Part shown: piece by piece, positions 18,371-64,000 of the stretch
Layout: every line of letters begins with the position of its first letter
Numbering within the stretch: the stretch's first letter is position 1
The notes under the pieces: model-generated
What the model saw: the letters and a program-made list of their open reading frames with translations, nothing else
What the model was told of the DNA's origin: nothing
Databases searched by the model: none
Made by a program: the position numbers and the translations under genes
NCBI GenBank assembly: GCA_963920525.1
Contig: OY986438.1
Coordinates: 79,182,677-79,246,676, forward strand
Source of the DNA: Dichetophora obliterata
Taxonomy: Eukaryota > Arthropoda > Insecta > Diptera > Sciomyzidae
Length of the DNA stretch: 64,000 bases
Direction of reading: 5' to 3'

Positions 18371-18557
18371 AGTGGTGAATTATAAATAAAAAGTAAAAAA
18401 AAAATGTTGATTTTATATGACAAATTCTAAATGTTTGATAGTTTAAATCATACTTGATTTTAAATACAAATTCTAGTTTTTTGATAGTTCAAATCATATA
18501 AAATCAACATAATAAATAACAAGGTCATTTAGAAAAAACTTTAGTAAAAAAAAATTT

Positions 18558-24511: not shown

Positions 24512-25147
24512 CCCTCCAGGAAATGTGAGCATTCCCGGATGTAACCAGGAAACATTCCATGGAATGTAAGAAGCATTCCCCTTCGGTGCACACTCCATTG
24601 CTTTTTTACATAGCATGTCATTAGAGGGAAACATTCCTCTCCACTGTGTTAAAAGTCAAGTGGAAACATTCCTCTCCGCTGTCTTAAAAAGTGAACTAGA
24701 AGCAGTCCTTTCCCTGTTCTGAAAAATAATGCCGAAACATTCCTCTCACTTGTTTTGAAAATGCTCGGCCAGGATTCGAACCCGGGACTCTTGAGCGAGA
24801 GTCAAGCGCGCTACCACTAGACTATCGAATTTTATAATAAGCGGCTAGGGAAAAAAATGAAATTAATATTTTCTTTTGTCATTGCTTGACAATAAGTAAA
24901 AGTTTCCATATGCATTCTTAAAGAAGCGGTTTGGAAACAATATTAATTCAAAACTACCAGTATAATTTCAAAAGATATGATGGGGAATGTTTATTCATCA
25001 TTTCCATATGTAAGTCTTCCAACTTATACAATTAGGAAGCGGTTTGGAAAAAACAAATATAAAACTACCCTTAAGCTTCCAAAAGATACGGTGGGGAATG
25101 TTTCTTTATCACATTTAGATGGAAGTTTTCCGATTTTTCCTGGAGGG
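24512..25147 (+). repeat. Inverted-repeat element 'T' with tRNA-like sequence, copy 1
   Basis: Ends are CCCTCCAGGAAA (24512-24523) and TTTCCTGGAGGG (about 25136-25147), with ATATA on both outer sides. Homologous in reverse orientation to 26472-26869. The body repeats AACATTCCTCTCC-CTGT-TT-AAAA units (period about 40, 24630-24750) and holds a tRNA-like sequence at 24770-24838. A 73-codon frame (24977-25198) crosses the right end and is probably noncoding. The element begins within 8 bp of the end of the gypsy A LTR. Confidence 0.65.
24770..24838 (-). ncRNA. tRNA-like sequence (box A/box B), copy 1
   Basis: Read on the minus strand: TTCGATAGTCTAGTGGTAGC (box A type), a stem CTTGA/TCAAG with loop CTCTCGC, and CCGGGTTCGAATCCTGG (T-arm with box B GGTTCGAATCC). 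A 5-bp anticodon stem and 7-base loop would give anticodon CUC (Glu-like). The acceptor stem is only partly paired and there is no terminator in place, so I regard it as a tRNA-derived pol III promoter unit inside a mobile element and not a working tRNA gene. Confidence 0.6.
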
Positions 25148-27139: not shown

Positions 27140-29066
27140 ACAAACTATACAAAAAGAGTAAATTGAACATATCCTTTCGTGAAAACAATCTTGTGGCTCG
27201 TAAACAGTATGAAAATCTAAAGATCTCCCTTTATTGAAGTAATGTCCGGGCGTTGAAATCGGATATTAAATGCAATCCTAGAGCTTTCTGGAAATTTTTT
27301 AATAAAAAGAGAAATACTAAGGGTACCTTCCTAAAAATATGTATTTTAAAGATAAAACATCGAACAATATTGAGGATGCATGTAATATGTTTTCTGACTA
27401 CTTCCAATCAAATTTTGTTTCAGATAATGTTCCTATAATGTTCCTATACATCCTATACATCATGTTCCAATCAAATTTTGTTTCAGATAATGTTCCTATA
27501 CATCAAGATCGATCGCTATATAATGGAGAGCGAATCACTGATTTGGGCAGTTAAGTTCTTTCGGTAGAAGATGTTTTTAACGAGTTGTTGTCACTCGATA
27601 TTAATAAGGGTGCTGGCCCCGATAATATCCCACCAATCGTCCTTCAAAAATGTGCTGCTGCACTTGCTCAGCCTCGTTCACTAATTTTTCATTTGAGAAA
27701 GGTATATTTTTGGATATTTGGAAGGTTTCAATTATAGTCCCTATTCATAAATCGGGATCAAGACAAGACATATACCTATAGAAACTATAGACCAATATCT
27801 AAGTTACCATCAATTCCCAAATTGTTTGAAGCCTTGGTGAAAAAACAGATCTATCAAGGCATTAAAAATTCGATATCTGAAAGCCAGCACGGTTTTGTCT
27901 CTGGAAAATCAACCTCTACAAACCTGGTTCTATTCACTCACTTAATAAAAAATGAATTGGAGAATGGTAAACAAATAGACGTTATTTTCACAGATTTCGC
28001 TAAAGCATTTGATAGCACTCTATTTTAATTAATAAGTTCAGTCTAATGGGTTTTCATTCTTCACTCTTGTCTTGGCTTAGTGAGTACCTTTTAGGTCGTA
28101 GCCAAAATGTATGCATCGGAAAGACGATCTCAAAAGCAATAAATAATCATTCAGGTGTGCCACAGGGTAGCCACCTTGGGCCGTTGTTATTTATTCTTTT
28201 CATCAATGATCTTCCTAATTTTATACAGTACTCAGAATTCCTTATGTATGCTGATGATGTTAAGATTTTTAAATCTGTAAGCTCTCGCAGTAATCAATGG
28301 AGTTTACAAAGTGATTTAAATAGTCTGCACTCATGGTGTATGCTAAATAAACTGAATTTAAATTTGTCAAAATGCAACATAATGTCATTTTATATGGTAA
28401 TATCTCCAATGTTTTTTGATTACTCAATTTTATGCAACGCCTTGATTAGAGTAGATTCTATATCTGATCTAGGTGTACTCTGCGATAAAAAGATGTCATT
28501 TTCAGGTCATTATGATAACATAATCGGCAGGGCTAATGCTATGATGGAATTCGTTAGACGCAACACTAGAGAGTGCTGACCCGTATACCATAAAGACTCT
28601 TTTCATTTCCATTATAAGATCAATACTTGAGTATGAGTGTGTAATATGGGACCCATTTTATGAGTCGAATAGTACAAGATTGGAAAAAGTCCAAAAACGT
28701 TTTACTCGTTTTGTTGTGAAAAAACTAAATTGGAATTTTATGCCAGAGTATAGCTCCCGATGTGCACTTATTGGGCTTAAATCATTGACTTCTAGAAGAA
28801 AATATTTTCTTATAACTTTTGTTCGAGATCTTTTAATGAATAATATTAACTGTGCGCCAATCCTCGCCCGTCTCAATATTTATGCTCCGGAAAGACACTT
28901 TAGGCAAAGAAATTTTTTTTACATTCCGCACCATAGAACTAACTATGGCCGGAGTGATCCGATTTTTAACATGTGCACTGTCTATAACAGTGTAAGTGCT
29001 CATATAGATTTCACTCAAAATAGAGAGGCATTTAAGCAAACTGTAAATAAATAAATAAATAAATAA
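27140..29066 (+). mobile_element. Non-LTR retrotransposon, 5'-truncated, with (AAAT)n tail
   Basis: RT and C-terminal region of a non-LTR element of the Jockey/CR1-like assemblage, ending in tandem AAAT repeats at 29043-29066. The endonuclease is missing, as expected for a 5'-truncated insertion. A 40-bp direct repeat near 27408-27500 (CCAATCAAATTTTGTTTCAGATAATGTTCCTA twice) is a local duplication. Frames change at least four times. Confidence 0.8.
27540..29054 (+). pseudogene. Non-LTR reverse transcriptase, frameshifted
   Basis: Motifs in order: NKGAGPDNIPP (about 27606), ALVKKQIYQ...SQHGFVSGKSTSTNLV (27822 onward), IFTDFAKAFDS (27986), NNHSGVPQGSHLGPLLFILF (28143-28202), the catalytic LMYADDVKIF (28242-28271), LHSWCMLNKLNLNLSKC (28327-28377) and the thumb DLGVLCDKKMSF. 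The C-terminal part 28600-29054 (SILEYECVIWDP, RLEKVQKRFTRFV) ends in stop codons at the AAAT tail. The catalytic Asp pair is intact; the frame is not. Confidence 0.85.
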
Positions 29067-32060: not shown

Positions 32061-33371
32061 AATTTCATCAGGGCCGGTCTTAAAAAAGGATTTTACTTAT
32101 CGAAGATAACACATAAAAATATTTGGGTCTATTACAGGAGTTTCAAAAGAGTTAACTGGCGAAAGAAAAGGAAACACCGTGCTAGTATTAAATGGTATAT
32201 CGGAGTAAGTTGATTTGAAGAAGTTTCAAACATGTTAGAAATCACATTGTCACTTCTTTCTGATTGAATTTCATAAGAGGTGGAAAGCTGGAGGCTTTAC
32301 GTTTTGAGTTAACAAAACTATAGAAAAGTTTTGGATCATCTTTAAATTGAGATTTTATGTTAATTATATAAGCAGAATAGCATTGTTTATTTAATAGTTG
32401 ATATCTATAACGACAAGAAAAGAAGGAAGCAAAGTCTAAACTAGAACTAGATATTTTATATATTTAAATAAACGATTTTTTAAATTTTTAAGTGCCTTTT
32501 GATCATTTGTTAGCCTGGGTGGATTTAAAGGATTGGAGAAACACCTTTTTTTTGGGACGGACAATAAAAACACCTTCGCAGAGTATCATTGAAAAACTGT
32601 ACAGAAGATTCGACGTCATAATATGAATATGATGTTCCGCTAGTTAAAATTGGAGACCAATCAGTCTGCGAAAGAAAGGAATTAAGTTTTACATAGTCCG
32701 TTTCCTTAAAATTATAAACTTTTTTATTTCGTGCATCAGCAGTTACTTTATCTACTTTTTCGTGGGGAAGTAAAACTGTTATTTCAAGAGTTGAATGATG
32801 TACATCTTCTGGAAGAGATACGGGATTCGAACAATGGAGATTAACAGTAGTGCATCTATCTACAAATACAAGGTCTAGGGTTCTGTGGTTTATATTTAAA
32901 ATATCATTGACTTGTTGAAGACACAGATCAGACAGCTTATCTAGGAAATCATTTATACAATCACTATTGGAAACAGAAGTAAGAAATGAAGAATCATCAG
33001 ACGATCTCCAAGTCACAAAAGGTAGGTTAAAATCACCCAGCTCAATAAGAACGTCTTTATTTTTTAACAAATTATGAACTTTTTCGATGGCGTGTAAATG
33101 CTTTAAATACATTTCTAAGTCACATTTAGGAAGAATGTAAGAGCAGGTAACATAAATAATACTATAATTTAATTTAACTGCAACTCAAATGAACTCAATG
33201 TCACTGGTGTCAAGAATTGTCAATTCTTCAGATACAAGCGAGTTTTGAACAGCTATCAAAACACCACCACCGATCTTATCATGACGATCTTTACGAAAAA
33301 TTTGATATTTATTGCACATTATTTCAGAATTTAAGATATTAGAAGAGTCTCTGTAAAAGTTATAATGTTAT

Positions 33372-44547: not shown

Positions 44548-46156
44548 CAGTGTTGCGCAAAATAATAGCAACAAAATAGCAAAAAATCGTGTATCTTTTT
44601 TAATATTGGGGGCACACAAAAAAGATTATAGGAATGAAAGCATATATTCATACATCATATATAAAACAAATCAAATTCAAATTTGGTTTGGTTTTTTTTT
44701 TTATTAAATTTAAAATTAATGTGACTACATTCAATTTGTCTGTGAGCAAAGTTAAGTTCGAAGAGTTATTGGTAAAAGTTCCGTTATTGTAAAGCACGTG
44801 TTGTTTGTAAGTCATAAACATTTAAGTTTAGTTTTTTTTTGTGCTAGTTGTGACATTGACTGTTCCATTTATAATGGCACGTTTTAAATACTGTGAGGCT
44901 CTTAAATTACAAATTATTTCCAAATGTAAAAACGAAAATTCGCAAATATCTAACGTGAAACAGTTTAATATTAATCGGCCAATAGTTTACAGATTAATAA
45001 AGAAATATACCTTCACAAAAGACGTAACAATGGTACATTAAAGAGGGCGACCGCGGAAAACATCGCTGCGTAATGACAGGAACATTTGTGGTGTGTTCAA
45101 GCAAAATGCATTTGCCACAGCCAAAGAGGTTATTCGGACACTTGATTTAGATATCCACCACAGCACTGTTTGAAGACGAGCCGTTGAGAACGATTAAAGA
45201 AGTTACAGACCGGCGGAGAAACCTTTGCTTACAGCTTAGCATAAAAAACAAGGTGAGGTGTTGTAATTTAAACAATTCTGTCTGAAATTGTGGCAAATAG
45301 TTGCAATGTATTGTTTTTTAAACTCAGTCTTCCAAAAGAGCACCTAAATTGGACCGTTCAAAAATCGAAAACCGTTTTTTTAGCGATGAATCAAAGTTCA
45401 ACTTGATTAATTCAGATGGGATGTGCACAGTACGGCGCCACCCAGTACACGACTTGAAGCCCGAAACTGCAAAATAAATTTTGAATACGGATGCAATGGC
45501 ATTATGGTCTGGACTTGTTTTTCCTATAAAGAAGTTGAACCATTTCAAAAAATCTATGGAATTATGGATCGATTTGTATATGACATAATAGAAAGCAAGA
45601 TGCAACCACATTCAGAGTGAAATATGTCGCTTCAGTGAACGTTTCAGCCCGATCACGACCCTAAGCACACTTCAACGCTCATCAAAGATTGCATAAGAGG
45701 CAAAGGGATTCAAGTCCTTGATTAGCCGGCACAGTCACAATGACTTGAATCCCATTGAAAATCTTTTTGGGATTTTGAAGGTAAAAGTTTCTGGTCAAAG
45801 GTTTTCCAATAAGACTCCACTGTATGAAGCGCTGAAACTTAATTGGGAACATATACTAATACTAACATATCTACTTTGCCGCTCAGCTGTGCAGCGGGTA
45901 TCAAGAATAATGGATCTTACACCAAATATTAATTATGTTGCTTTTGTTTTGCTCTCAGACAAACTGAATGCAGTCACATTAATTTTAAATTTAATAAAGA
46001 AAACAAAACCAAATTGGAATATGATTTGTTTTTAATATGATGTATGAATATATGCTTTGGTTCCCATAATCATTTTTGTGTGTCCCTAATATTTAAAAAG
46101 ATACACGATTTCGTAGTAGCGTACCGATTTTGTTGCTATTCTTTTGCGCAACACTG
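44548..46156 (+). mobile_element. Tc1-like transposon, decayed
   Basis: Ends CAGTGTTGCGCAAAATAATA and TTCTTTTGCGCAACACTG are inverted, each next to TA (44546-44547, 46157-46158). A second inverted pair (AAAAAATCGTGTATCTTTTT / AAAAAGATACACGATTT) lies just inside. The length of 1609 bp is normal for Tc1. It encodes a broken transposase on +. Confidence 0.9.
44874..46035 (+). pseudogene. Tc1-type DDE transposase, broken
   Basis: The Met at 44874 starts MARFKYCEALKLQIISKCKN, a paired-type helix-turn-helix; RGRPRKTSLRND supplies the AT-hook-like GRPR motif after a stop at 45039. The catalytic part has FSDESKFNLINSDG (about 45372), then EFQPDHDPKHTSTLIKDC (about 45635) and PAQSxxLNPIENLFGILK (about 45725). 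In this last motif the SPDLNPIENLW signature has lost its Asp in the frame seen. At least four stops or shifts separate the pieces. Confidence 0.85.
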
Positions 46157-51085: not shown

Positions 51086-51845
51086 TACCGCTCGCCTGAC
51101 CAATACCATTCATAAACATGGTACATTAAGTGCATTGTCACAAAAATAGCCATATTTGTGATAAACAAAATATGGTCAGAATTGCGAAATATGTTTTCGG
51201 TAAATAGAAACATGTTTGCTACAATTAAAGTCGAAAATGTCACTTTTCTGCGTGCTGTTTTTAGGATAAGGCGATTTAAAACAAAACAAAATAATTGAAC
51301 AGTTGACAAACGAAACAGCACATAGCCAGAAATCGATAAAACTTATTGTGTATGAATGAAGTGAAAGTTTTTCCTGCAAACTGTTCAGACACAACAAATT
51401 CTTTCGATTTTCGGTTATGTTCTGCTTCGTTTGCTAAAAAGCAAAGAATAGTTCAGACAAACATTCAAAATTCTAAACTCATTTTTGTTTATAAAAAAGG
51501 AATATGATTCTATGATTCTATAACATATTATATTGAAAAACTGTCAAAAATTCTTATACTAAATTTAGACTTTTATTTTGACTATGATTGGGGCCATTAT
51601 CTTTTTCTTATATAATTAACTCTTATCTTTTTGTCATATAATTTCAAGAATATAATCTCATAAAGCGAGTATGACGACGTAATCCAGGCATATCTTGTGT
51701 ATTGGTTTGGTCTTTTTTTCCGTTTTACATTGTGTTATTTCTAGTGTTATATTATTCTAAGAGTGATATGGAATCTCTTGAAATTGGAATTGAAAATTAT
51801 CCTTACATAAATTTAGAATTTTTCAAATACATTTATATATAAAAG
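51086..51845. other. Stretch without recognised features
   Basis: AT-rich; minus-strand frames at 51085-51397 are hydrophobic and lack family motifs. Confidence 0.4.
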
Positions 51846-52215
51846 CTTGAGGCACCGATGTCCGCGATCCGTTACACAGGTTTACTACACATTATCAGTG
51901 GCACTGAATCTTTTAGTAAGCTTACCTGTACATAAACTGTGATCCATTATACAGGTTTACTACACAATATTAGTGCATTAAGCTTTTATATATAAATGTA
52001 TTTGAAAAATTTTAAATTTATATAAGTCCTTATAACTTACCAATTTACGCACACTTATATTATGATGATGAGTAACCAAGAGAGGGGTTCTTCTGCACTT
52101 AGAATGTACCTACTATATACATATATGACCAATTTCACTTAAATCAATTTTTATTAATTTATTTGTTTCTTTTTTAAATAAAAGCTTATTTTTAAAAATT
52201 GTTTTTTTTTACTTT
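51846..52215 (+). repeat. Dispersed repeat 'R', copy 2
   Basis: Reverse complement of the copy at 18558-18906. Here the repeat also has a terminal inverted pair: TTTAGAATTTTTCAAATACA with the following TATATAAAAGCTT (51808-51846) is inverted at about 51971-52022. GATGTCCGCGATCCGTTACA and the two TAATGTGTAGTA-type units are shared. It is noncoding and is possibly a MITE. Confidence 0.7.
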
Positions 52216-53061
52216 TTATTTATTATTTATTTATTTGGTTGCTAAACCTTAGCAGGTTTTATAGCAAATTGAAATTCTTAAATAAGGTATTGATTACAAT
52301 TTAAATATTATATATATTTGATAAATATGATATTGATTGAAATTAAATATTATTTCAAAAGTATATTAAAAAATATATTAAAAAGCTAAGTCAAAACGAT
52401 AATATCAGACAGCATAGCAGGGTTGCGTTTTCAAGACAAACAAGGTCAAGTCAGCAACAATTTTTGTATCCTGACATCGGCGGAGTCGAGGGACAAAAAA
52501 GGTATCATACCAAATAAATACCACTCCAATAAGTATACATATAATATATATCGTTCTGTCTTCCTGAAGCCGGATCCTGGCTTGACAGGGTGGTTACTCT
52601 ACTAACTAAATCAACTTAACCACACTTACTTAAAATAAAGAAAACCAGTTGCGAACGCAGGCATCAAGACAAACTAGGACATATCGGACACTCATATTAA
52701 TATCTTACAATTTGATCTAACGTAGTGTTTCAAGAGGTAAAAACCAAGACCGCCGACATATGTAGTCACATCCACCAAAAAGTATATATCGTAACGATAT
52801 ATACTTTTTGCATTCACCATGAAGATATACGGCAGTTTAAGATCCAAAGGTGCTAGTTAAAGTATTTATACCGTGTAACGATGCGTTCTCACGGCTGAGG
52901 TAAGCTCGCCGGAACCAGGATCGTTGCAAGAATTTAGTAATTGCAAACACTAAATCAAACTCAAGGGTTTTCAAATAATGACAATATTTATTCACAATTC
53001 GTAGCTTAAATCTAACTTAAATCTACCTAGAGCTACCCTAATCAAATTGATCTGTGATAAT
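52216..53061. other. Noncoding stretch with a perfect hairpin
   Basis: 52229-52245 holds (TTTA)n, a possible non-LTR tail on the minus strand. At 52778-52810 a 33-base palindrome has two 16-base arms around a single A (AAAAAGTATATATCGT-A-). No coding signal is found. The last part may belong to the 3' flank or LTR of gypsy element B. Confidence 0.45.
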
Positions 53062-53194
53062 GTTTCGCAATTTAGATAATGTTTCGTAGTTTAATAGATG
53101 TTTCGTAATTTAAATAATGTTTTGTAATTTAAATAATGCTTTGTAATTTAAATAATGCTTTGTAATTTAAATAATATTTTGTAATTTAAATATT
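53062..53194. repeat. 19-bp tandem array, seven units
   Basis: Units of GTTTCGTAATTTAAATAAT type, 7 x 19 = 133 bp, with a few substitutions per unit. Confidence 0.85.
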
Positions 53195-53293
53195 AATTGT
53201 GAGTTTCTGTAGTTTAAATATTGTCCTTAAATTCCAACTGTCTAATCAGCCGGGGAGAATGCGTTACAATGCCAAAGGAAAGGATGGATTTGA

Positions 53294-53755
53294 AGCACAA
53301 AAGGGTCGCAGTTCTCGCTAACCTTAAGGCAAGGAAAAATGCAATCGGGCTACAAGTCGCAGTTCACGCTAAGCTTGTAGTTCACCGAGGAAAAGGATAT
53401 TTAGGTTGGGTTTAAAGACCAAGCTTACGTTGGGTACGGGCTCGTCCTTGGACAGCGGATCCGAGAGTTCGCGTTCACGCTAATCTCGTTGGAGGAAAAT
53501 AGGTTTTTGGAGGATTAAGAACGGACTGGGTGGTTAGAAGCACAAAAGGGTCGCAGTTCTCGCTAACCTTGAGGCAAGGAAAATGCAATCGGGTCACAAG
53601 TCGCAGTTCACGCAAAGCTTGTGATTCGCCGAGGAAAAGGATGCTTAGGTTAGGTTTAAAGACCAAGCTTACGTTGGGTACGGGCTTGACCTTGGACAGT
53701 GGATCCGAGAGTTCGCGTTCTCACTAATCTCGTAGGAGGTGGGAATAAGGTTTGA
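53294..53755. repeat. 245-bp tandem duplication
   Basis: AGCACAAAAGGGTCGCAGTT begins at 53294 and again at 53539. The two copies then run in parallel through AAGACCAAGCTTACGTTGGG to the GATCCGAGAGTTCGCGTTC segment with about 90 percent identity. GC content is higher than in the flanks. It is probably part of the 3' terminal region of gypsy element B. Confidence 0.85.
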
Positions 53756-53759
53756 GGAG

Positions 53760-55438
53760 GAATTAATTTGGCTATTATGATTTATTTAATTTCACTCACT
53801 TTTAATATTAAATTATTCAAATATTTGTTAGCAAGAATATTTCATATTTTTACTACGTTAAGCTGATATCAAATTATTTAAAAAAAATGTATTTAATTAT
53901 CTACGAAATTATTATTAAATAAACCTACAAGAATCAATATAATAAAAAGGAATGAATAAATGATACTTAATATGGTCCTGCTGCTGCTGACTTCAGGATT
54001 TATCCTGGTATGGCCGGCGTTGCTCTGTCTCTGTCGCTGTTGACGTCTTCCTGGTGCTGATGCTTGTGGCTGCTGCGAAATTGGTGCTGTTGACGTCGAC
54101 TTTGTTAATCGTCGTTGATTAATTACGACGTCGTTGGTGCACTGCTGCTGCCGATTTGGCTATACGGTTTTGGTGCTGTCGATGATGTCGATGATCAATA
54201 CTGCGCTGTTGACGCAGTTATCCTGTTGCTCAAACCGAAGTCTCTTTCAACTGTGCGGCTCTGTTGCTACTGACAGGATGCGGTAGATCTGGCAGCGCTA
54301 TGTGGCGCTGCTACCATTGACGCACGTCCGCTGCCCGCTAGGCCGTGCGGTTCTGTCGCTGTTGTCGTCGGTGTCGATGATCAATACTGCGCTGTTAGCG
54401 CAGTTATCCTGCTGCTCACGCCGAAGTCTCTTTCAACTGTGCGGCTGTGTCGCTGTTGGCAGGATGCGGTAGATCTGGCAGAGCTGTATGGCGCTGCTAC
54501 CGTTGACTCACGTCCGCTGCCTGCGTTGACTGCGCTGCTCTGGCGCTGTCGTCCTGACGGTCGATGTCGCTGCTGCGCTGTCTTAGCGTAGCTGTCGTAA
54601 AGGAAGTTTTGCTGTTTGTAAACTGCCGCTCACTCGATGGACTTACTGTCCTACTTCGCGGTTTAAATAAGACTGGTGTTTCACTGGTGGACTTCTCGGT
54701 TTCGCGTTTCAAACGAGACTGACTTCTTCATCTCGATTCTAGTTTGATATACCCTCGCTTGTTATGTTCGTCTCATGCAGGTGTTCGTCTCTCATATACA
54801 TCGTACGATGGTGCCGTTGTTACATGCAATGAAAAAAGCAAATACAACAAATTATCGCCTGATCGTGTAGCTGTTGTTTTTAATTACGCATTAGTTTTGC
54901 CGAAGCAACAATTATATGGAATTTAACTAAATGTGTTTTATGCTTTCCAGCATCCCTGTGAGAAAATGGGGGCACACCTTATTGGCATGACTAAGTGGTT
55001 CCTGCCTGACTAAGTTAAGATGAAGAACGTCATGGTAGGTCTGGTTTAAATTCATTCCTGCTTTTATTATATATATTATATAAATAAATACTATTTATAT
55101 AAAGGTAAGTATATATATAAAATAAAAATAAAAGCATATTAAATAAAAGTACATAAAGAATATTAGAAATAACTTAGCCTATAATTCACTTTTCCTTAAC
55201 CTACTTTAACCTAATCTAAACCCCTAGATTGGGCCAACCACTCCTCATCTCCTGTCATATTTAGCCTTGACCACCCTTGAAGTGGCCCTCGCATGGCTAA
55301 CCTCCGCACTGGGTAATTCTGGTTGGACTGTGCGTGTAGTCGACCGTGTATGACCCAGCAGGAAACGATATCTGAAATGAAAGTTATTACTATTAAAACA
55401 TGTAGGGCAAAACTTTACAAAAGTTTTGGTCCTTACAT
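53760..55438 (-). repeat. Putative 3' LTR of gypsy element B (right border firm, left border unknown)
   Basis: The minus strand starts TGTAAGGACC at 55438, directly after a purine run. Within it lie a TATA-like GGGTATATC (about 54750), an initiator-like TCAGTCTCG just downstream and AAATAAATC near 53785. These would fit a promoter and poly(A) site of a long LTR. The 5' LTR is outside the window, so the left end cannot be fixed; it may reach as far as 53.0 kb or lower. 54.0-54.55 kb contains GC-rich tandem units of about 190 bp (GATCAATACTGCGCTGTT..., AGGATGCGGTAGATCTGGCA). Confidence 0.5.
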
Positions 55439-55450
55439 CTCCCCCTTACT
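55439..55450 (-). promoter_or_regulatory. Polypurine tract of gypsy element B
   Basis: On the minus strand, GTAAGGGGGAGA directly precedes TGTAAGGACC. A purine run followed by TG marks the site where plus-strand DNA synthesis is primed and the 3' LTR begins. The stop codon TAA of ORF3 (55448-55446) lies inside this run, which ties ORF3 to the element. Confidence 0.75.
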
Positions 55451-57458
55451 TCAGTGGGCGGTGGCGGAGGGTCTCGGTGCCGTCTTTGCGGATGTTCACC
55501 TGGAATTGGCGGTTACCGATGGTGACGAGGAACCGGATCCTTTTGCCTTCTTGTACCCAGTGCTGATGTTGTTCTGCTAATAATTTACTGAAGTAGGGTT
55601 TCAGAGGATCGGTAGCTGGAAGAGGTTGGGTTGACCATCCTGTGGTTGTTTGACGAAGCTCGCCCAGGCTCATGTCGCTGTCCTCACCGATGGCCTCTGC
55701 TGGAGATACTTTCTCTGTCATCTCCCTTAGGAAGAGGGGATCTTGGACTCGGACGTGTGCGTGTTGTGAGGTGCCGGGAGCGCTTGGCTGTCGTCGGGAT
55801 CCGCGTGCTGCTGTATTCAAGCTGATGCGGTTGAGCGCGCGTTTGCATGCGCGTTTGAAGTTTACTTGTCTTTTAAACAAGGTTTCGGCCTGTTGTCCCA
55901 ATGGATGGCTCTTGACAGATTCTGTGGCCTTCTGTGGGACTTGCGGTTGGCCGCTCGAGTAGCTGGCGCTGGCATATTGCCGCGCGCTGTGAATGGGCGC
56001 TTGCTGCTCTGGCAAGCTGCTGACGTGGGCCTCGGTTTCGGGCTTACTTGCTTCTGCTGGCTGCTCTTGCAGACTGACGTAGCCGAATTTGTGGATGACG
56101 CTGGCGCGCGTCGTGGTGCTGTTCGTGGGACCTGGCATAGGTTCACAGCTGAGCTGTGCGAAATCGCTCTCAAATCGTTGCTGCTGTTGTAAACAACGCT
56201 GTTGTGGGGCACAAATCACGCTTTCACGTAACTGGGATGTGCTGGCATGCTGTGGTGGGTCTGGCCATGTAAAGACGATGGGTGAAGAACTGCTGCTCCG
56301 TTTTGTCGACGCTTTGCTGGGACTCTGTATCGATGCTGTTTTGTTTGCGTTGGGCGTGGTGCTGCTGGTGCTAGAGCTAGTAGTGGTTGACGTTGACGAG
56401 CTGCTACTACTGGAGCTGGTGCTGTCGTCAGATGAGCTATCACGTCGGAATCGTCGTGGTGTACGCTGGATTGGTCGCTGTTGTCTTTTCGGAGCCTTGG
56501 CTGGTGCTGGAGGTGTTTTTATGGCTGCGCTGTCGGTTTTCACTGTGCTGATGAATTCAGTCAGGTATAGTGGTGGCAGGCTGGTCCTGACTGATTTTTC
56601 TACCAAGCCAGTTATTAATTCTGCGAGCTCGCGTCGCTTGTTGGCTGCCTCGATGGGTGAGAACCACTCTCTGCCGCCGACTGTTCGTAGGTCTGCTCCA
56701 GGCTCGCGCAAAAATAAGTCTGCGAAGTGAAGTACGAATGGCCCACAGTCTGTTGAATTTAATTGCTGTGGGACCACAACATCGTAGCTTGGCACTGTAG
56801 CCTCGTTCCAAGCTGCAAGGGTAGCATTTGGGTGCGCTGCCTTCCACTCGCTTTGGAGGTATGTGCGCAATATTGGCGCTACATGGCTTCTGGGTGCGTT
56901 GGCAAACGAGTCGAGGATCCATATCCTACCACGTCGCGGTACTGGGCACAACTGGCGTTTCAGGCATATAATCGCCAAGTACCAATGACATCCTTCGTTG
57001 ATGGGCACTACAATGTATGCTTTTTCCAAGAGTCGAATGCGTTTTGTCCAGCGACGCAGTCGGTCGATCTGACTCGGTTCGTAACCGTCACTGGCCACCT
57101 GGCTGAGCTGCGTGAAAAAGTGTGAGCTAAAGATGTGTACGCTCGCTTGTGTGGGACTCGGTTGCTGAAGGTACAACCATTTCAAATAGAATTCGATGAG
57201 GCTATCGTTAAATAGCCTTCCGCACGCAATTCGCTCGTAATCAGAGCGGTAGATAGTGATGCCGCCCTGGCCGGGGGGGTAGATGAGTATGGCCGATTCG
57301 TGGTCTTGAGTTGACGTTCTGCTGACATTGGATTCGCGTGCCGCTGTGGTTAAGCTGTCGCGATTTACCGATGAGGTGCTGGCTATGTCGACCCTTTTGC
57401 ACTGCTCTTCTGCTCTTGCAGGATGGTGTGTACCATTTCCATCATTTGCTCGCTTCAT
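55446..57458 (-). CDS. ORF3: Ulp1/SENP-type (C48) SUMO-protease-like protein, 670 aa
   Basis: Intact frame. Residues about 64-255 form a C48 cysteine protease domain: FNDSLIEFYLKWL (83-95, substrate-binding start of the family), VVPINEGCHWYLAIIC (150-165, catalytic His158), IWILDSF (179-185, Asp183), then QQLNSTDCGPFVLHF (231-245, oxyanion Gln232 and nucleophile Cys238). Order and the Gln-x5-Cys spacing match Ulp1/SENP enzymes, which cut SUMO or related modifiers from proteins; the CHWYLA block recalls SENP6/7. Residues about 330-380 are Ser/Thr-rich and probably disordered. The tail (about 600-670) ends in a compact segment with IRFLVTIGNRQFQVNIRKDG, of unknown role. The Met at 57458 follows a candidate mini-intron. 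It lies where env would be. Being a host gene is unlikely because it ends in the element's polypurine tract. SUMO specificity is inferred. Confidence 0.85.
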   Translation of the reverse strand: MKRANDGNGTHHPARAEEQCKRVDIASTSSVNRDSLTTAARESNVSRTSTQDHESAILIYPPGQGGITIYRSDYERIACGRLFNDSLIEFYLKWLYLQQPSPTQASVHIFSSHFFTQLSQVASDGYEPSQIDRLRRWTKRIRLLEKAYIVVPINEGCHWYLAIICLKRQLCPVPRRGRIWILDSFANAPRSHVAPILRTYLQSEWKAAHPNATLAAWNEATVPSYDVVVPQQLNSTDCGPFVLHFADLFLREPGADLRTVGGREWFSPIEAANKRRELAELITGLVEKSVRTSLPPLYLTEFISTVKTDSAAIKTPPAPAKAPKRQQRPIQRTPRRFRRDSSSDDSTSSSSSSSSTSTTTSSSTSSTTPNANKTASIQSPSKASTKRSSSSSPIVFTWPDPPQHASTSQLRESVICAPQQRCLQQQQRFESDFAQLSCEPMPGPTNSTTTRASVIHKFGYVSLQEQPAEASKPETEAHVSSLPEQQAPIHSARQYASASYSSGQPQVPQKATESVKSHPLGQQAETLFKRQVNFKRACKRALNRISLNTAARGSRRQPSAPGTSQHAHVRVQDPLFLREMTEKVSPAEAIGEDSDMSLGELRQTTTGWSTQPLPATDPLKPYFSKLLAEQHQHWVQEGKRIRFLVTIGNRQFQVNIRKDGTETLRHRPLK

Positions 57459-57475
57459 TTTGCACTTGGATTTTC

Positions 57476-57531
57476 CTGAATAAATCGTTTAAATCGATGT
57501 TATTAGTTGATTTGGAGATTTATAAGTTTAC
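57476..57531 (-). promoter_or_regulatory. Candidate 56-nt intron upstream of the ORF3 start
   Basis: Minus strand: AAAG|GTAAAC donor, CTAATAAC branch-point match (57506-57499), and TTTATTCAG|G acceptor 17 bases before the ATG. The length of 56 nt is typical for fly introns. It could be a true mini-intron in an ORF3 mRNA. Alternatively the acceptor could serve a longer splice from the leader, as env mRNAs are made. No transcript evidence is available from sequence alone. Confidence 0.5.
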
Positions 57532-57534
57532 CTT

Positions 57535-58851
57535 TCAGTTCGCTTGTTGTGTTGTTTTCGAAATAATAATAACGAATGCTTGTTTAAATTTCTAGTGTTG
57601 CAGGTCTGTCCGATTTTCCGATAACAACCAGTGTTGTTATTTTCTGATTAGATTTTCAGGGCTGCGATTTTCAAGTGTTGTGTACACGTAACATCGATGT
57701 CGCACTACTTGGGTCATACGACCACGAAAGGTATCGCTAGGAGAAAGTGAGCATAGTGTTGGGTTGGTAGCTGTAGGGGGGGTTTGAGGTGTTAAGAATA
57801 CATCAAATACGGCGGAATTTTATTCAAATAGAATTTTACACATTCTATCCGACATAAAATATGAATTTTGTCAATTTTATTAATCTCAATCGTGAGAATG
57901 AATAGCATAACCCTGTGTCGTGATGACTTTTAATTCTCAATTATGCCTGTCTTTACCTAAGCTTTTCTAACTTTACGCTTTCTATTCGTTGGTTACGTCT
58001 TATTACGTTGCAGGTTATGTTCTTAATTCGTAATTTTGTCGATTTTCTTGAACTCTTATGCTGTACTACGGGATTGTGAACGTATTTGGTTCCATCTTTT
58101 GGGATTGTACAACCTTCTAACAGTTGTTTTCAGCTGGTGTCGCCACTTTGGTGTCCACTTGAGGTTTTTCGTCTCGCTACTCGGGGTGCAGTTATTGCGC
58201 GGTTGCCGCCGCGGTTTGGCAGTTGTTTTATGGCGGATACGGCCGCCGAGTTGGCTGTATGGCTCTGGTGCTTTTATCGCTGACTCTGGTGATCCTTACT
58301 GCACTACTGGCGCAGCAGTCCTGTTGCTCATACCGTGGTACTCTTGACTGCACGATTTTGTTGCTGTGATCAGGTTCCTAGGGATCTTGTAGCTCTATTA
58401 AGATACTACGGCCGTTGATACACTGCCACTGCCGTTTGACCTATTTTTAATGACGATGGTCGCATCGTATTCGGCTAGATGACTCTGGGGTTGTTGTCGA
58501 TGACTCTGGTGATCCTTACTATCCTGCATGGTATAGTAGTCCTGTTGCTCATACCGTGGTCCTTTGACTGCACGATTCTGTTGCTGTAACCAGGCTCTGG
58601 TGGATCTTGTAGCTCTATTAAGACACTACAGCCGTTGACACACTGCCACTGCCGTTTGACCTATTTTTAATGACGATGGTCGCGTCGTATTTCGACTGGT
58701 ACTTGTCGCTTTCCACAGTTGTTTTAGCGGTTGCCGCCGCGTTTTTGCAGTTGTCCTGCGGATGCCGCCGCGATGATGCAGTTGTTCTTACGGTTGCTGC
58801 CGCCTCTTTGCCCATTTTTTAAAACGACGTTGGCTCGTCGTACTTCGTCTT
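57535..58851 (-). other. Spacer between pol and ORF3, with GC-rich tandem repeats
   Basis: No open frame of note. 58250-58480 and 58490-58720 are two copies of a roughly 230-bp unit (GACTCTGGTGATCCTTACT, CCTGTTGCTCATACCGTGGT, GGATCTTGTAGCTCTATTAAG). Words such as TGGATCTTGTAG/CGGTAGATCTGG and CCTGTTGCTCA also occur in the 54.0-54.5 kb LTR region, so the same family of repeats occurs on both sides of ORF3. The left half (57.6-58.0 kb) is AT-rich. Confidence 0.6.
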
Positions 58852-61800
58852 CTACTTATGACAGTTGGTTTTGCGGTTGCCGCCGCGGTTGGCAGTTGTT
58901 TCTGCGGATGCGGCCGCCTGCTTGACCCCTCCTCCTTGACAGTTGGTTTTGCGGTTGCCGCCGCGGTTGGCAGTTGTTTCTGCGGATGCGGCCGCCTGCT
59001 TGACCCCTCCTCCTTGACAGTTGGTTTTGCGGTTGCCGCCGCGGTTGGCAGTTGTTTCTGCGGATGCGGCCGCCTGCTTGACCCCTCCTCCTTGACAGTT
59101 GGTTTTGCGGTTGCCGCCGCGGTTGGCAGTTGTTTCTGCGGATGCGGCCGCCTGCTTGACCCCTCCTCCTTGACAGTTGGTTTTGCGGTTGCCGCCGCGG
59201 TTGGCAGTTGTTTCTGCGGATGCGGCCGCCTGCTTGACCCCTCCTCCTTGGCACTTGGTTTTGCGGTTGCCGCCGCGGTTGGCAGTTGTTTCTGCGGATG
59301 CGGCCGCCTGCTTGACCCCTCCTCCTTGACAGTTGGTTTTGCGGTTGCCGCCGCGGTTGGCAGTTGTTTCTGCGGATGCGGCCGCCTTCTTCGACTCTCT
59401 TGTCTCCACCTGCAGTTGGTTTAGCGGGTGCCGCCGCGTTTTCACAGTTGTTTCTGCGGATGCTGCCGCCTGTGCAGTTGTTTCTGCGGGTGCTGCCGCC
59501 TCCTCACAGTTGTTAACGCGGTTGTTGCCGCGATTGTGACCTTGTTTAACGACGTTGGTCCCGTCGCGGCTCACTTGGCCCTGTGCAGTTGTTTCCGCGG
59601 ATGCTGCCGCTGTTTGACCTTGTTTAACGACGTTGGTCCCGTCAACGAACTTCTTCAGTTCGCCGACATGAGCTTTTCTTACTTTGGACTCACCTTTCTT
59701 GCGAAGCTGTGCAATCACGGGCGAAATAAATCCGATGACGACGTAAGGGCCTTCATACTTGGGAGCTAATTTCGCAGCGAAGCTGTTTATTGCGCTAGAC
59801 AGCGGATGTTGTTTGACGAGGACCTTCTCGCCTATCCTTGGCTGCCAATCACGCCTACGCAAATTGTAGTGACGTGCCTGGTCGCGCGTAGCTTGACTTA
59901 ATTTGCAGCGCACAAGTTTAAATATTTCTTGCAGTTGTTCTGCACGTGCTGTTGGTGATTGAACTTCTCGGCCGGTGCCCATCGTTTGCTCATCGAAGAG
60001 TGCTCCAGGGAGTCTTGGTTCTTGACCTTGCACTATAAATGCCGGACTGAAGCCAGTGACATCAGACTTGCTGCTGTTCAGTGCCAAGGTGAGCTCTGGT
60101 AGACACTCATCCCACGTCTTATGTTGATTTCGACTGAATTGCGCTATCATTGTTTTGAGCGTCTTGTTGGTTCTCTCAGTCGGGTTTTCCTGCGGTGAAT
60201 ACGGGGCGGTAAACTGCTGCCGGGTACCAATCTCCTGCAGGAACTTCCGAAATGCACGACTGCAAAACTGAGAGCCGTTATCAGTTATGAGTACCTTTGG
60301 GACTCCAAATCGGGCTAATATTCTTTCTCGAAAACCTTTTTTCAAATTATCGCTGGTGGCTTTGCGCATCGGTACCGCTTCGGTCCATTTACTAAATTTG
60401 TCGAATAGTACCAAAATCATGGTGTTACCGTGCTTCGACCTCGGTAATGGCCCAACAAAATCGGCGCACACGACGGACCATGGCTCGTCCGCGATGCGGG
60501 ACAACATTTTCCCTGCCGGAGCCTGCTGGCTTGATTTGTAGCGTTGGCATATCTCGCAGCTTCTCACATATCGGCTGACAGCTCGAAACAGGCCAGGCCA
60601 GTAATAGCGATTGGTTATGCGGCCAATGGTCTTACGAACTCCAAGGTGGCCGGCGCTGGGCTGGTCGTGGTTTTCTGCCATAACTCTCGCTCGCAGGTAT
60701 GTCGGCACGCATAGCTTCCAAGCGGCTGCTTCTTCGTCACCAATCTGGTTAGGTATGTGTCGGTATAGGCTGCCATCTTCTTCCATATAATCAGGAAATT
60801 TTTCAGGATTGTCTCGAACCTCTTGTTTTCGTCGCTCTAGCCAGGGACAATGCTGTGTTTCTGCCGTAACCTCAGTAGTCTTGCACAAGTCCTCCAACGG
60901 TTGTCTTGACAATGCGTCCGCCACCACGTTCAGCTTACCGCGTCTGTACTGGATGTCAAAGCTATATTGCTGCAACTCGAGAGCCCACCGCGCGATGCGG
61001 CCGGACGGACTCTCTATCGAGTTCAGCCATTTCAAAGAAAGATGGTCGGTGATTACTTTGAAGTGGTAGCCTTCCAAATAACAGCGCATTTTCCGGATGC
61101 CCCACACGATGGCCAGGCACTCCTTTTCCGTAGGGCTGTAATTGCGTTCGGCTTGGATGAGGTGACGACTGGCGTAGGCTATTACGCGCTCGGTGCCGTC
61201 AAAATCCTGCGTCAGTACTGCGCCGAGCCCGTAGTCGCTCGCGTCGGTCTGCAGTACGAAGGTTCGGCTAAAATCTGGACAGGCTAAGACAGGCGCCTTG
61301 GTCAATTTTCCTTTTAAGGCTTCGAACGCTTCTTGTTGTTCAGGTCCCCATCGCCAATGCTTGCCTTTCTTCAGCAATTGTGTCATAGGCTGCGAGATAG
61401 TGGCAAAATCGGGTACAAAACGGCGGTACCACGACGCCACACCCAGATATCGACGCAGTTCCCGAAGGCTCGTCGGCGGTGCCAGATTTTTGATGGCCGC
61501 AACCTTATCCGGATCGGTGTGTATTCCGCTTTCGCTTACTACATGTCCAAGGTACTTCGTTTCGGACCTGAAGAACTCGCACTTCTCTATGTTCAGCTTA
61601 AGGTTTGCCGCTCGTAACCGCCTAAACACCTCCTTCAGATTTTGGACATGCTCCTGTTTTGAACCTCCTGTCACAATGATGTCATCAAGATACGCGAAGG
61701 CGAACGGTTCCAATTCGGGGCCGATGACGGTGTCCAATGCTCGCTGGAATGTGGCCGGTGCTGAGTGTAGTCCGAAGGGCATTACGCGCCACTGAAATAA

Positions 61801-62799
61801 ACCTCGTCCTGGGACGGTGAAGGCCGTATACTTTTTGCTATCTGGATGCATTGGAATCTGCCAGTACCCATTCTTCAGGTCAAGGCTGCTTATATATTTG
61901 GCGTTGCGCAGCCTGTCCAAAATGTGGTGTATTCGGGGCAGGGGGTATGCGTCTGGAACCGACTTCGCGTTCAGCTGCCTGTAGTCGATGCATAGCCTCC
62001 ACGAGCCAGTCTTCTTACGCACCAGCACTATGGGCGCGCTGTGTGGGCTGTGGGACGGCTCTATGAAGCCCTTTTCTAGCAGCTCGTCTATCTCCTGGTT
62101 GATGATTCCCTGCATTGCCGGGTTCCTCGGGTAATAACGTTGTTTGAGGGGTCGGTCATCCGTCATGACAATCTTATGTGGCGGCACGTGGGCGGTTCCT
62201 TGTAGAGCGTCGAATTCCTGTAGCTCGGTTTTTAAAAATCCATCCAATGATTCTTCTCGGGGCGCTAGGACATCAGACATCGTTGTACACGCTGGTTCGC
62301 TGGGTACAGGGTTTTTTACAGGCCGTAGCATAATAGTTTGGTTACCCCAGCCAAAAGTGGCTTTGGTCCTTATTAAGAAATCCATCCCAAGTAGGAGGTC
62401 ATCTGTTACTCCAGGCAGGATGAGCAGGTGTAATTTACATTGCCTTGATCCTACTCTTGCTCTCACGCTCAGGGCTTCTTCAACTACCTGCAGAGACCCA
62501 TCGGCCATGCGCACGTTGGTTGTAGTAAATTGTTGATTGTTGGTAGTGCGTAATTTATTTGCTAGCGTGTGGCTGGCAAAGCTGCGTGTGGCTCCTGTGT
62601 CGATGGTGGCCTCTATTTCGTGCTGATCTATTTGCACTCGTACCCAGATTCGCCTGTCATCATGTTGTAGGTGTTTTATTGCTGTCGAGGAGTGTGGCGG
62701 CTGGACCCGTTCTTTCCTCGAACTGGAGCGGGTCCTCTGGCGTTTCCCTGAAACTGTGTTTCGCAACATTCGAAGGTAGCTCGGCCGCGTCGTCCACAT
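58852..62799 (-). CDS. pol: Pol polyprotein of gypsy element B, 1315 aa, intact
   Basis: Order: aspartic protease (IDTGATRSF, Asp67; LLGMDFL 136-142), RT (RLCIDYRQLN 268-277; SLDLKNGYWQIP 305-316; AYLDDIIVTG 369-378, catalytic Asp pair), RNase H (LQTDASDYGLGAVL 516-529; VITDHLSL 582-589), and integrase with a zinc domain (H711, H718, C748, C751) and a DDE triad D780 (VVCADFVGP), D840 (LITDNGSQF) and E875 (NPTERTNK), 34 residues between the last two. All catalytic residues are present. The tail after about residue 1060 is unusual: seven copies of a 26-residue repeat (AAASAETTANRGGNRKTNCQ core). The frame overlaps gag by 124 nt and is shifted -1 relative to it, suggesting frameshifting or internal initiation. 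Products would process the polyprotein, copy the RNA and integrate the cDNA. Confidence 0.95.
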   Translation of the reverse strand: MWTTRPSYLRMLRNTVSGKRQRTRSSSRKERVQPPHSSTAIKHLQHDDRRIWVRVQIDQHEIEATIDTGATRSFASHTLANKLRTTNNQQFTTTNVRMADGSLQVVEEALSVRARVGSRQCKLHLLILPGVTDDLLLGMDFLIRTKATFGWGNQTIMLRPVKNPVPSEPACTTMSDVLAPREESLDGFLKTELQEFDALQGTAHVPPHKIVMTDDRPLKQRYYPRNPAMQGIINQEIDELLEKGFIEPSHSPHSAPIVLVRKKTGSWRLCIDYRQLNAKSVPDAYPLPRIHHILDRLRNAKYISSLDLKNGYWQIPMHPDSKKYTAFTVPGRGLFQWRVMPFGLHSAPATFQRALDTVIGPELEPFAFAYLDDIIVTGGSKQEHVQNLKEVFRRLRAANLKLNIEKCEFFRSETKYLGHVVSESGIHTDPDKVAAIKNLAPPTSLRELRRYLGVASWYRRFVPDFATISQPMTQLLKKGKHWRWGPEQQEAFEALKGKLTKAPVLACPDFSRTFVLQTDASDYGLGAVLTQDFDGTERVIAYASRHLIQAERNYSPTEKECLAIVWGIRKMRCYLEGYHFKVITDHLSLKWLNSIESPSGRIARWALELQQYSFDIQYRRGKLNVVADALSRQPLEDLCKTTEVTAETQHCPWLERRKQEVRDNPEKFPDYMEEDGSLYRHIPNQIGDEEAAAWKLCVPTYLRARVMAENHDQPSAGHLGVRKTIGRITNRYYWPGLFRAVSRYVRSCEICQRYKSSQQAPAGKMLSRIADEPWSVVCADFVGPLPRSKHGNTMILVLFDKFSKWTEAVPMRKATSDNLKKGFRERILARFGVPKVLITDNGSQFCSRAFRKFLQEIGTRQQFTAPYSPQENPTERTNKTLKTMIAQFSRNQHKTWDECLPELTLALNSSKSDVTGFSPAFIVQGQEPRLPGALFDEQTMGTGREVQSPTARAEQLQEIFKLVRCKLSQATRDQARHYNLRRRDWQPRIGEKVLVKQHPLSSAINSFAAKLAPKYEGPYVVIGFISPVIAQLRKKGESKVRKAHVGELKKFVDGTNVVKQGQTAAASAETTAQGQVSRDGTNVVKQGHNRGNNRVNNCEEAAAPAETTAQAAASAETTVKTRRHPLNQLQVETRESKKAAASAETTANRGGNRKTNCQGGGVKQAAASAETTANRGGNRKTKCQGGGVKQAAASAETTANRGGNRKTNCQGGGVKQAAASAETTANRGGNRKTNCQGGGVKQAAASAETTANRGGNRKTNCQGGGVKQAAASAETTANRGGNRKTNCQGGGVKQAAASAETTANRGGNRKTNCHK
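58857..59390 (-). repeat. 78-bp coding tandem repeat, about seven copies, in the pol tail
   Basis: Exactly 78-bp units (26 codons) encode GGGVKQAAASAETTANRGG-NRKTNCQ. Units are almost identical (single-base differences such as CAC for CAG near 59250). The length is a multiple of three, so the frame is kept. Degenerate relatives (AAASAETT/AAAPAETTAQ) continue upstream to about 59.6 kb. Confidence 0.95.
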
Positions 62800-63848
62800 T
62801 CCTTACAGAAGCATATTCGATCGTTTCTACATTCCGTTGGCTGATGGTCCTCTTGACCACATCTGCTGCAGGCTATTCGGACGTTGATAAATTCGGCTAC
62901 TGGTGGTGGTTCCGGTTCCATATGACTATGCCGTTCGTCTGGAATTTGCTCTGGTGCTTTCGCCTTTGCTGTGTTTGGTATGGCAGATCGATACAATTCC
63001 TCCTTGCTTCGCTGAGGGTTCCTACTCGGTCCTTCCGACCCTCGTATGATTTCGTAGTCCTCAGCAAGGGAGAGCAATTCGGTGAAGCTCGAGAAATCGC
63101 GTCGTCGTATGTATAATTGGTACTCCTGTCGACAGTTTCTGAAAACTCGTTCTACCTTTTGTGCTTCGGTCCAGTGAGCATGCCGCATCAGATCGATAAG
63201 GTCCAGGCTATATTCTTTGAACCTCTCCTGCGGCTTCTGTACTCGACTTCGTATTTGGTCCTCTAGGCGCTCAAAGAATCTGGCTGGCAGGAAATAGGTG
63301 AGGAATCTGTGTTTAAAATTTGCCCACGATTCACTGGAGTTTTTATTATTTCGCCACCAAATGAGGGCTCGGTCCTTGAGCAGCTCGGGCATCACCCTAG
63401 GAAAGTGGTCCTTATCCACGCTGTATACACAGGCGAGCTCCTCTAGCCGCTCAACGAATTCCAAGGGGTCTCGGCCCTCCTCGAATCTAACGGGCCACCT
63501 TCGGACCTGGTCCATAATATTGCCGTACGATGATGCCTCGTGAAATCTCCCTCGTCCTGTTGGCACCTCGGGTATCGTGATGCTCACCGGTATGTCCTCT
63601 TGGCCTGGTAGACTGAGCGCAGCTGTGTGTGTTCCCGGTCGTGGCGATGGCGTTCTTCGGTCGCTGTGTTTGCTTTCCAGCTCCACCAACCGCTTTTGTA
63701 ATTGCGGGTTGTCTTCAAGATCGACCACGGCGGCTGCAAATCTCTTGCGTAATTCCTCCACAGTTCCTTCCTCGCTGAGCCCAAACTCGAGGGCGTAAAT
63801 CTGCAAGTCATCCTTCCGAAGGCTGTGTATCCATGAGGTCTTGACCAT
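62676..63848 (-). CDS. gag: Gag of gypsy element B, 390 aa, intact
   Basis: Start Met at 63848 (MVKTSWIHSLRKDDLQIY). Residues 10-45 (LRKDDLQIYALEFGLSEEGT followed by VEELRKRF) resemble a SAP-type helix-loop-helix, a DNA/RNA-binding motif seen in some gypsy Gags. Residues about 115-270 are a retrotransposon capsid domain (DPLEFVERLEELA; LKDRALIWWRNN; ANFKHRFLTYFLP). A zinc knuckle CSRCGQEDHQPTEC (327-340) is followed by an atypical Cys cluster CFCKECGRRG (346-355) and ECCE. It forms the particle and packages RNA. The C-terminus overlaps pol by 124 nt. Confidence 0.93.
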   Translation of the reverse strand: MVKTSWIHSLRKDDLQIYALEFGLSEEGTVEELRKRFAAAVVDLEDNPQLQKRLVELESKHSDRRTPSPRPGTHTAALSLPGQEDIPVSITIPEVPTGRGRFHEASSYGNIMDQVRRWPVRFEEGRDPLEFVERLEELACVYSVDKDHFPRVMPELLKDRALIWWRNNKNSSESWANFKHRFLTYFLPARFFERLEDQIRSRVQKPQERFKEYSLDLIDLMRHAHWTEAQKVERVFRNCRQEYQLYIRRRDFSSFTELLSLAEDYEIIRGSEGPSRNPQRSKEELYRSAIPNTAKAKAPEQIPDERHSHMEPEPPPVAEFINVRIACSRCGQEDHQPTECRNDRICFCKECGRRGRATFECCETQFQGNARGPAPVRGKNGSSRHTPRQQ

Positions 63849-64000
63849 GGTGACTTTGTTCCGTTTAGTTGCCGCAATAACGTGGTGATAATATAATTAT
63901 TAATTTTTTTTTTGTTTTCTTATTACCCACTCGCCCAACCTAAATTCAAGGAAGAATGTAAGAATGCCTTTACCGTTGCAAATTCCTACCTGATACGTGT
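63849..64000 (-). other. Leader of gypsy element B, cut by window edge
   Basis: 152 bp upstream of gag, AT-rich near 63.88-63.92 kb. GGTTGGGCGAGTGGGTAATA on the minus strand (about 63946-63927) might be near a primer-binding site, but neither an LTR end (CA) nor homology to the 3' LTR candidate is visible, so the 5' LTR probably lies beyond the window. Confidence 0.5.

Follow-up and report, generated by a model that had tools for sequence, protein, structure and literature searches.

A SENP6/7-like protease gene as the third open reading frame of a Gypsy-type LTR retrotransposon in the fly Dichetophora obliterata

Introduction

Insect long terminal repeat (LTR) retrotransposons of the Ty3/Gypsy type, Osvaldo/Ulysses and the errantiviruses among them, share a plan that comprises a gag gene, a pol gene encoding protease, reverse transcriptase (RT), RNase H and integrase, flanking LTRs, a primer binding site (PBS), a polypurine tract and a third open reading frame (ORF) in the env position, which in the errantiviruses is env itself. 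Here we describe an element of the same plan from the sciomyzid fly Dichetophora obliterata in which the third ORF (ORF3) encodes instead a predicted protease of the C48 (Ulp1/SENP) family. It was found in a stretch of 64,000 nucleotides (assembly GCA_963920525.1, contig OY986438.1, positions 79,182,677 to 79,246,676 of the forward strand), hereafter the window, to whose first letter our coordinates refer. A sequence-only reading of this DNA had proposed that a SENP6/7-like protease occupies the third-ORF position in which Gypsy elements usually have env, and our analysis bears this out.

Ulp1-type proteases are on record from other mobile elements. NeSL and nematode Utopia non-LTR retrotransposons are described as having an Ulp1-like cysteine protease domain (PMC4640811), and Ulp1 domains are reported from Mutator-like and Ginger1 DNA transposons, the integrase of Ginger1 being Gypsy-like (PMC2836005). 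The NeSL/Utopia domain is the N-terminal part of a single RT-endonuclease protein in a non-LTR element, and Ginger1 and Mutator-like elements have terminal inverted repeats, lack RT and carry Ulp1 fused to the transposase, whereas the D. obliterata element possesses LTRs, an RT and a separate third gene of the SENP6/7 type. Orchid Ty3/Gypsy elements have an extra ORF for a captured AlkB RNA demethylase with a presumed role against host surveillance (PMC9289625). They differ from the present element in enzyme, host kingdom and target, and AlkB activity has been shown, whereas that of ORF3 is predicted from sequence.

No Ulp1/C48 ORF in an LTR retrotransposon was found in the literature, which is weak evidence of absence, Repbase and the subscription journals having been outside the scope of the search. 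Nothing on C48 was found in the available part of the Troyka paper (PMC12440569), Ulp, C48 and SUMO occur at no place in the orchid AlkB paper (PMC9289625), and no transposon-encoded counter-measure aimed at SUMO was met in the literature searched. With the present element, LTR retrotransposons join Mutator, Ginger1 and NeSL/Utopia as separate takers of Ulp1-type proteases.

Results and Discussion

A C48 protease gene inside a complete element

ORF3 occupies 55446-57458 on the minus strand and encodes 670 amino acids, in which the C48 (Ulp1/SENP6-7-type) protease is accompanied by a Ser/Thr-rich linker and, at the C terminus, a short segment shared among lineages described below. The sequence-only reading had placed it at 55439..57458; the frame of 670 codons is real, its lower boundary had been set a few bases low, and the strand, which had gone unnamed, is minus. 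Intact gag and pol genes lie upstream of ORF3 on the same strand. The gag gene (62676-63848, minus) encodes 390 amino acids with a match to Pfam Retrotrans_gag, and pol (58852-62799, minus) encodes 1315 amino acids in which Pfam recognized aspartic protease, RT, RNase H, H2C2 and integrase, in that order, followed by a C-terminal tail of 26-residue repeats that correspond to 78-bp units. Open from 62802 onward, the pol frame shares 127 nt with gag, at an offset of -1.

The 3' LTR (52874-55437, minus; 2564 bp, TGTAAGG...CGTTACA) has its partner beyond the end of the window (L057, 972-3535), and the two are 100% identical over 2564 bp. A 4-bp target-site duplication, CGGT, stands at both ends of the element (52870-52873 on the side of the 3' LTR), and the PBS, TGGCGCCCGAGCAGGGAC, begins two bases past the 5' LTR, likewise beyond the window end. 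Ahead of the 3' LTR is a polypurine tract, AAGTAAGGGGGAGA; in the form GAAGTAAGGGGGAGA (55438-55452, minus) it directly adjoins the LTR start TGTAAGG and holds the stop codon of ORF3, TAA, as the sequence-only reading had noted. Paired LTRs with a duplication, the protease-RT-RNase H-integrase order of gag-pol, and a PBS together with a polypurine tract are the hallmarks of Ty3/Gypsy elements, and the ORFs, Pfam matches and LTR pair agree with the earlier assignment to a Gypsy-type element. Given the identical LTRs, the CGGT flanks and the PBS, the window copy is a complete, young insertion with ORF3 inside. The long LTR and the putatively lysine-tRNA-like PBS recall Osvaldo/Ulysses.

Between pol and ORF3 is a non-coding stretch of 1.4 kb (57459-58851, minus) that contains two 220-nt direct repeats (58253-58471 and 58473-58691). 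The 78-bp tandem units at the end of pol (58859-59404) are nearly identical to one another, and pieces of them recur in this stretch. Part of it (58242-58365) is about 70% alike to 54147-54268, in a repeat region within the 3' LTR, and weak direct repeats therefore flank ORF3. The LTR itself consists partly of tandem repeats, units of 19 bp as well as two pairs of longer ones (53038-53208, 53289-53766 and 54174-54591).

Domain, active site and fold

Pfam matched residues 82-253 of ORF3 to Peptidase_C48 (56700-57215, minus; E 2.1e-28) and to no other family, envelope glycoproteins, the mark of an errantivirus env, included. The Ulp1-type residues that had been picked out in the 670-codon frame, His158 (56985-56987), Asp183 (56910-56912), Gln232 (56763-56765) and Cys238 (56745-56747, all minus), lie within this match and form invariant columns in an alignment of 19 sequences. 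When the DNA of ORF3 was shuffled 200 times, no open frame exceeded 249 codons, against 670 in the real sequence.

A sequence search of the Protein Data Bank gave human SENP7 as the best chain (E 5e-29), followed by SENP2, SENP1, SENP5, Ulp2 and Ulp1, and the fold of ORF3 is nearest to that of SENP7; through the YPPGxGG stretch, the domain can be aligned to both SENP7 and the SENP2-Loop1 construct 3zo5. ORF3 thus resembles SENP6 and SENP7 (Ulp2-type) in catalytic residues, fold, YPPGxGG stretch and, as shown below, tree position. It differs from them in being borne by a mobile element, in having a linker and tail that are unrelated as far as seen, and in lacking the large insertion that splits the SENP6/7 catalytic domain, of which about 10 residues are left; the insertion is present in a host gene of the same genome (L062) and in P0004. 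Because of this absence we describe ORF3 as derived from SENP6/7 and not as a typical member, and it offers a naturally simplified SENP6/7 catalytic domain.

ORF3 copies and their linkage to pol

With ORF3 as query, we searched the 1.31-Gb D. obliterata genome (76 contigs) and, from 2,382 first-look candidates, scored 66 loci. ORF3 is thus present at no fewer than 66 loci, with 83 matched stretches, and these fall into several diverged lineages, with identities to ORF3 of about 100%, 92%, 52-61% and 40-46%. Sixteen of the 83 stretches are free of stops from residues 1-4 through residue 670. Among the 46 loci read (L001-L046), 27 have a frame that stays open as far as the tract preceding the LTR start, where the stop is TAA, TAG or TGA depending on the locus; the remaining 19 have frames that are broken or truncated upstream of that point. 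Six further copies differ from that in the window at 1-5 of 2040 nt, making seven near-identical copies in all. A copy of lineage G retains its 5' LTR, with 99.8% identity across the 1486 bp that were compared.

Same-family pol in matching orientation was present in nine of ten pieces upstream of ORF3, including one truncated copy and one bearing a deletion; at L042 the upstream pol is a distant Gypsy only (31% identical). In the converse search of the genome, with pol as query, the 35 best loci of 22,726 candidates were scored; at 26 of them an ORF3 is listed no more than 5 kb downstream and on the strand of pol, and ORF3 was also present at all three of the other nine that were probed. The sequence-only reading had reasoned that copies of the same gag-pol family ending after pol without ORF3 would count against it; other copies of the family do carry ORF3. 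The idea that the element landed by chance next to a host gene, ORF3, is ruled out by the number of loci, the co-occurrence with pol and the stop inside the polypurine tract, and a single-copy host-gene version likewise fails, a separate SENP6/7-type gene (L062) being located elsewhere in the genome.

Two pairs of ORF3 loci lie close together on the same strand, L002 and L005 (C1:145154119 and 145165762) 11.6 kb apart and L024 and L025 (C4:62312089 and 62322017) 9.9 kb apart, a spacing that resembles tandem elements with a shared LTR.

Selection on ORF3

From the 46 ORF3 loci, 18 representatives were picked by hand, as were the close pairs used to estimate the ratio of nonsynonymous to synonymous substitution rates (dN/dS, NG86), an estimate confined to close pairs because between lineages dS has reached saturation. 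His, Asp and Gln are retained in all 18 representatives and Cys in 17, the exception being frameshifted at that point. Over seven close pairs dN/dS was 0.07-0.18 for the protease and 0.23-0.79 for linker and tail, with the protease lower within every pair; further close protease pairs gave 0.075-0.225, the maximum coming from a decayed copy (L009). Measurement of dN/dS had been suggested by the sequence-only reading, and the range of 0.07-0.23 for the protease demonstrates purifying selection on ORF3 that is strongest in the protease domain, linker and tail being much less constrained. A functionless passenger is ruled out by this range for the protease domain. Over the same 21 lineage pairs, identity was 0.81-0.93 for pol and 0.42-0.71 for the protease domain, which is constrained yet evolves faster than pol.

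Probable origin from an insect SENP6/7-type gene

In a tree of ORF3 with host SENPs, an analysis that the sequence-only reading had also proposed, the ORF3 lineages are monophyletic (100/100) and their clade is placed next to SENP6/7-type proteins of Anopheles and P0013 (93/86), a joint grouping that stood at 96/93 after the SENP6/7-type gene of D. obliterata itself was added; the SENP6/7 labels on the Anopheles, P0013 and own-genome proteins were assigned in this analysis. Tree tests rejected the grouping of ORF3 with fly Ulp1 (p 0.006) and with fungi (p 0.003). The host gene, L062, is separate from the ORF3 loci. A second SENP6/7-type match in the genome (G000 C4:213187697-213189175) shares 60% identity with the Anopheles protein across residues 126-577, contains four stops and is a possible pseudogene.

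These data point to an old, clade-wide gene that would have come from an insect SENP6/7 captured once by the ancestor of the clade, the large insertion then being lost. Of the capture envisaged by the sequence-only reading, the SENP6/7-type origin is upheld by tree and fold; its attribution to a single element is not, the gene being old and common to the clade. Protein databases, in which only proteins of limited length are seen, returned no close relative of ORF3 (17, 10 and 1 hits, the first search swamped by low-complexity words), and two scans of viral_contigs found no relative.

A second set of C48 loci

Searching the genome with the Anopheles protein, we scored 61 loci, comprising two that are host-like, one of them with four stops, and 59 others. 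All 59 lie more than 8 kb from the 66 ORF3 loci and more than 12 kb from the 35 pol loci, and many are open and fall into groups similar in length. Of those listed, most match as two blocks close together, from which the large insertion is therefore missing, as in ORF3. At the one locus of the 59 that was read (L063-L064, C6:104923000-104930100, minus), a C48 ORF of 641 amino acids ends in TAA CCGGGGGG TGTAAGGACC, with an LTR start identical to that of the window element. Upstream are a gag 42% identical to the window gag and then a Pro/Thr-rich frame of at least 590 amino acids in which Pfam found no match, and no match to the window pol was found in the L063 or L064 pieces. The C48 ORF is grouped with ORF3 in the tree at 79/88, which is not firm. 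Elements without pol may thus keep gag and protease, to judge from this one locus, which is a possible non-autonomous element retaining the protease.

Candidate splicing

The ORF3 frame opens only at 57488, behind the non-coding stretch, and ORF3 is therefore not an extension of pol and needs a separate message; translation from a spliced RNA is likely. A candidate 3' splice site, TTTATTCAG|G (57476-57477, minus), lies 17 nt ahead of the ORF3 ATG. A stringent acceptor scan by pyrimidine count listed 57738 and 57772 and not this site, which was chosen for its position and because AG-type sites occur near the start of ORF3 in several other lineages. The candidate 5' splice site, CAG|GTAGGA (63988-63989, minus), is within a leader of 1046 nt. 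The leader (63848-64000 and L057) also contains TTTTCAG|AGG 20-odd bases before CAG|GTAGGA, and the pair resembles the two ends of a very short exon.

Possible function

Transposon silencing in flies depends centrally on SUMO. ORF3 is a predicted SENP6/7-type SUMO protease, probably made from a spliced RNA, that would desumoylate host silencing and chromatin factors for the benefit of the element, a proposal that we consider about evenly poised between right and wrong. The ancestor of the clade would have taken an insect SENP6/7 gene that went on to lose its large insertion; the protein translated from spliced RNA would cut SUMO, perhaps in chains, from host silencing and chromatin proteins; and its removal would relieve SUMO-dependent silencing and favor the element's own transcription or integration. 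Splicing, enzyme activity, SUMO preference and anti-silencing benefit are all steps that we infer. In yeast, ubc9, siz1 siz2 and ulp1 mutants have elevated Ty1 RNA, an effect ascribed to reduced SUMOylation of cellular proteins and other factors of the host cell (PMC8585004). Several observations weigh against the proposal. Grouping of ORF3 with plant ULPs was not firmly rejected (p 0.067), and the SENP6/7-like protein P0021 falls outside the ORF3-SENP6/7 group. Without the large insertion, the substrate choice of ORF3 may differ from that of SENP6/7. The strict donor pattern occurred in two of the five leaders scanned (A and E; not G, I or A2), leaving a 5' splice donor conserved across lineages unsupported. 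Finally, ORF3 could serve the element in another way, with Gag or integrase as its substrate.

This last is the main rival, if a rather unlikely one: ORF3 would strip Gag or integrase of SUMO or ubiquitin, or cleave a polyprotein site, and so aid particle assembly or nuclear entry. It accords with the encoding of ORF3 alongside gag and pol at the 26 listed and three probed pol loci, and the second-family locus, with gag and a C48 ORF and without a recognizable pol, fits Gag as the substrate and weighs against integrase. On the other hand, pol already encodes an aspartic protease, and the faster divergence of the protease domain relative to pol fits host targets better, not decisively. Some C48/CE-clan proteins work on other ubiquitin-like proteins, and ORF3 might have kept the fold while acting on ubiquitin or NEDD8; we consider this improbable, SENP6/7 ranking first by sequence, fold and tree. 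A shade less probable again is that ORF3 serves mainly to bind SUMO and so anchor the element at chromatin, catalysis being of lesser importance. SENP folds do bind SUMO, but the retention of His, Asp and Gln throughout, and of Cys in all but one representative, speaks for catalysis. That ORF3 is a host gene by chance insertion or a functionless passenger has only its origin from a SENP6/7-type gene in its favor and is very improbable in the face of the stop in the polypurine tract, the at least 66 loci, the co-occurrence with pol, the selection on the protease and the separate L062 gene.

A selected, clade-wide SENP6/7-type gene in an LTR retrotransposon makes SUMO counter-defense directly testable. 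In its broadest and more doubtful form, which we put forward tentatively, the counter-defense proposal would have one old SENP6/7 capture found a radiation of SUMO-countering LTR families, the protease being so useful that selection keeps it in every lineage compared, even in gag-plus-protease elements without pol, and SUMO-dependent silencing being a main front between this genome and its transposons.

Other features of the window

Pieces of LINE-type (long interspersed nuclear element) endonuclease and reverse transcriptase are present at 513-2574, 28046-28579 and 32525-33112, and two minus-strand pieces of distant Gypsy pol, at 10603-11292 and 17310-18377, are 23% and 29% identical, respectively, to the pol of the element. 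Two elements with terminal inverted repeats, at 44584-46111 (120-nt arms, 88% alike) and 51802-52026 (54-nt arms, 93% alike), resemble DNA transposons or miniature inverted-repeat transposable elements. A tRNA-like match on the minus strand at 24765-24828 scored barely over the gathering threshold (30.7 vs 29 bits).
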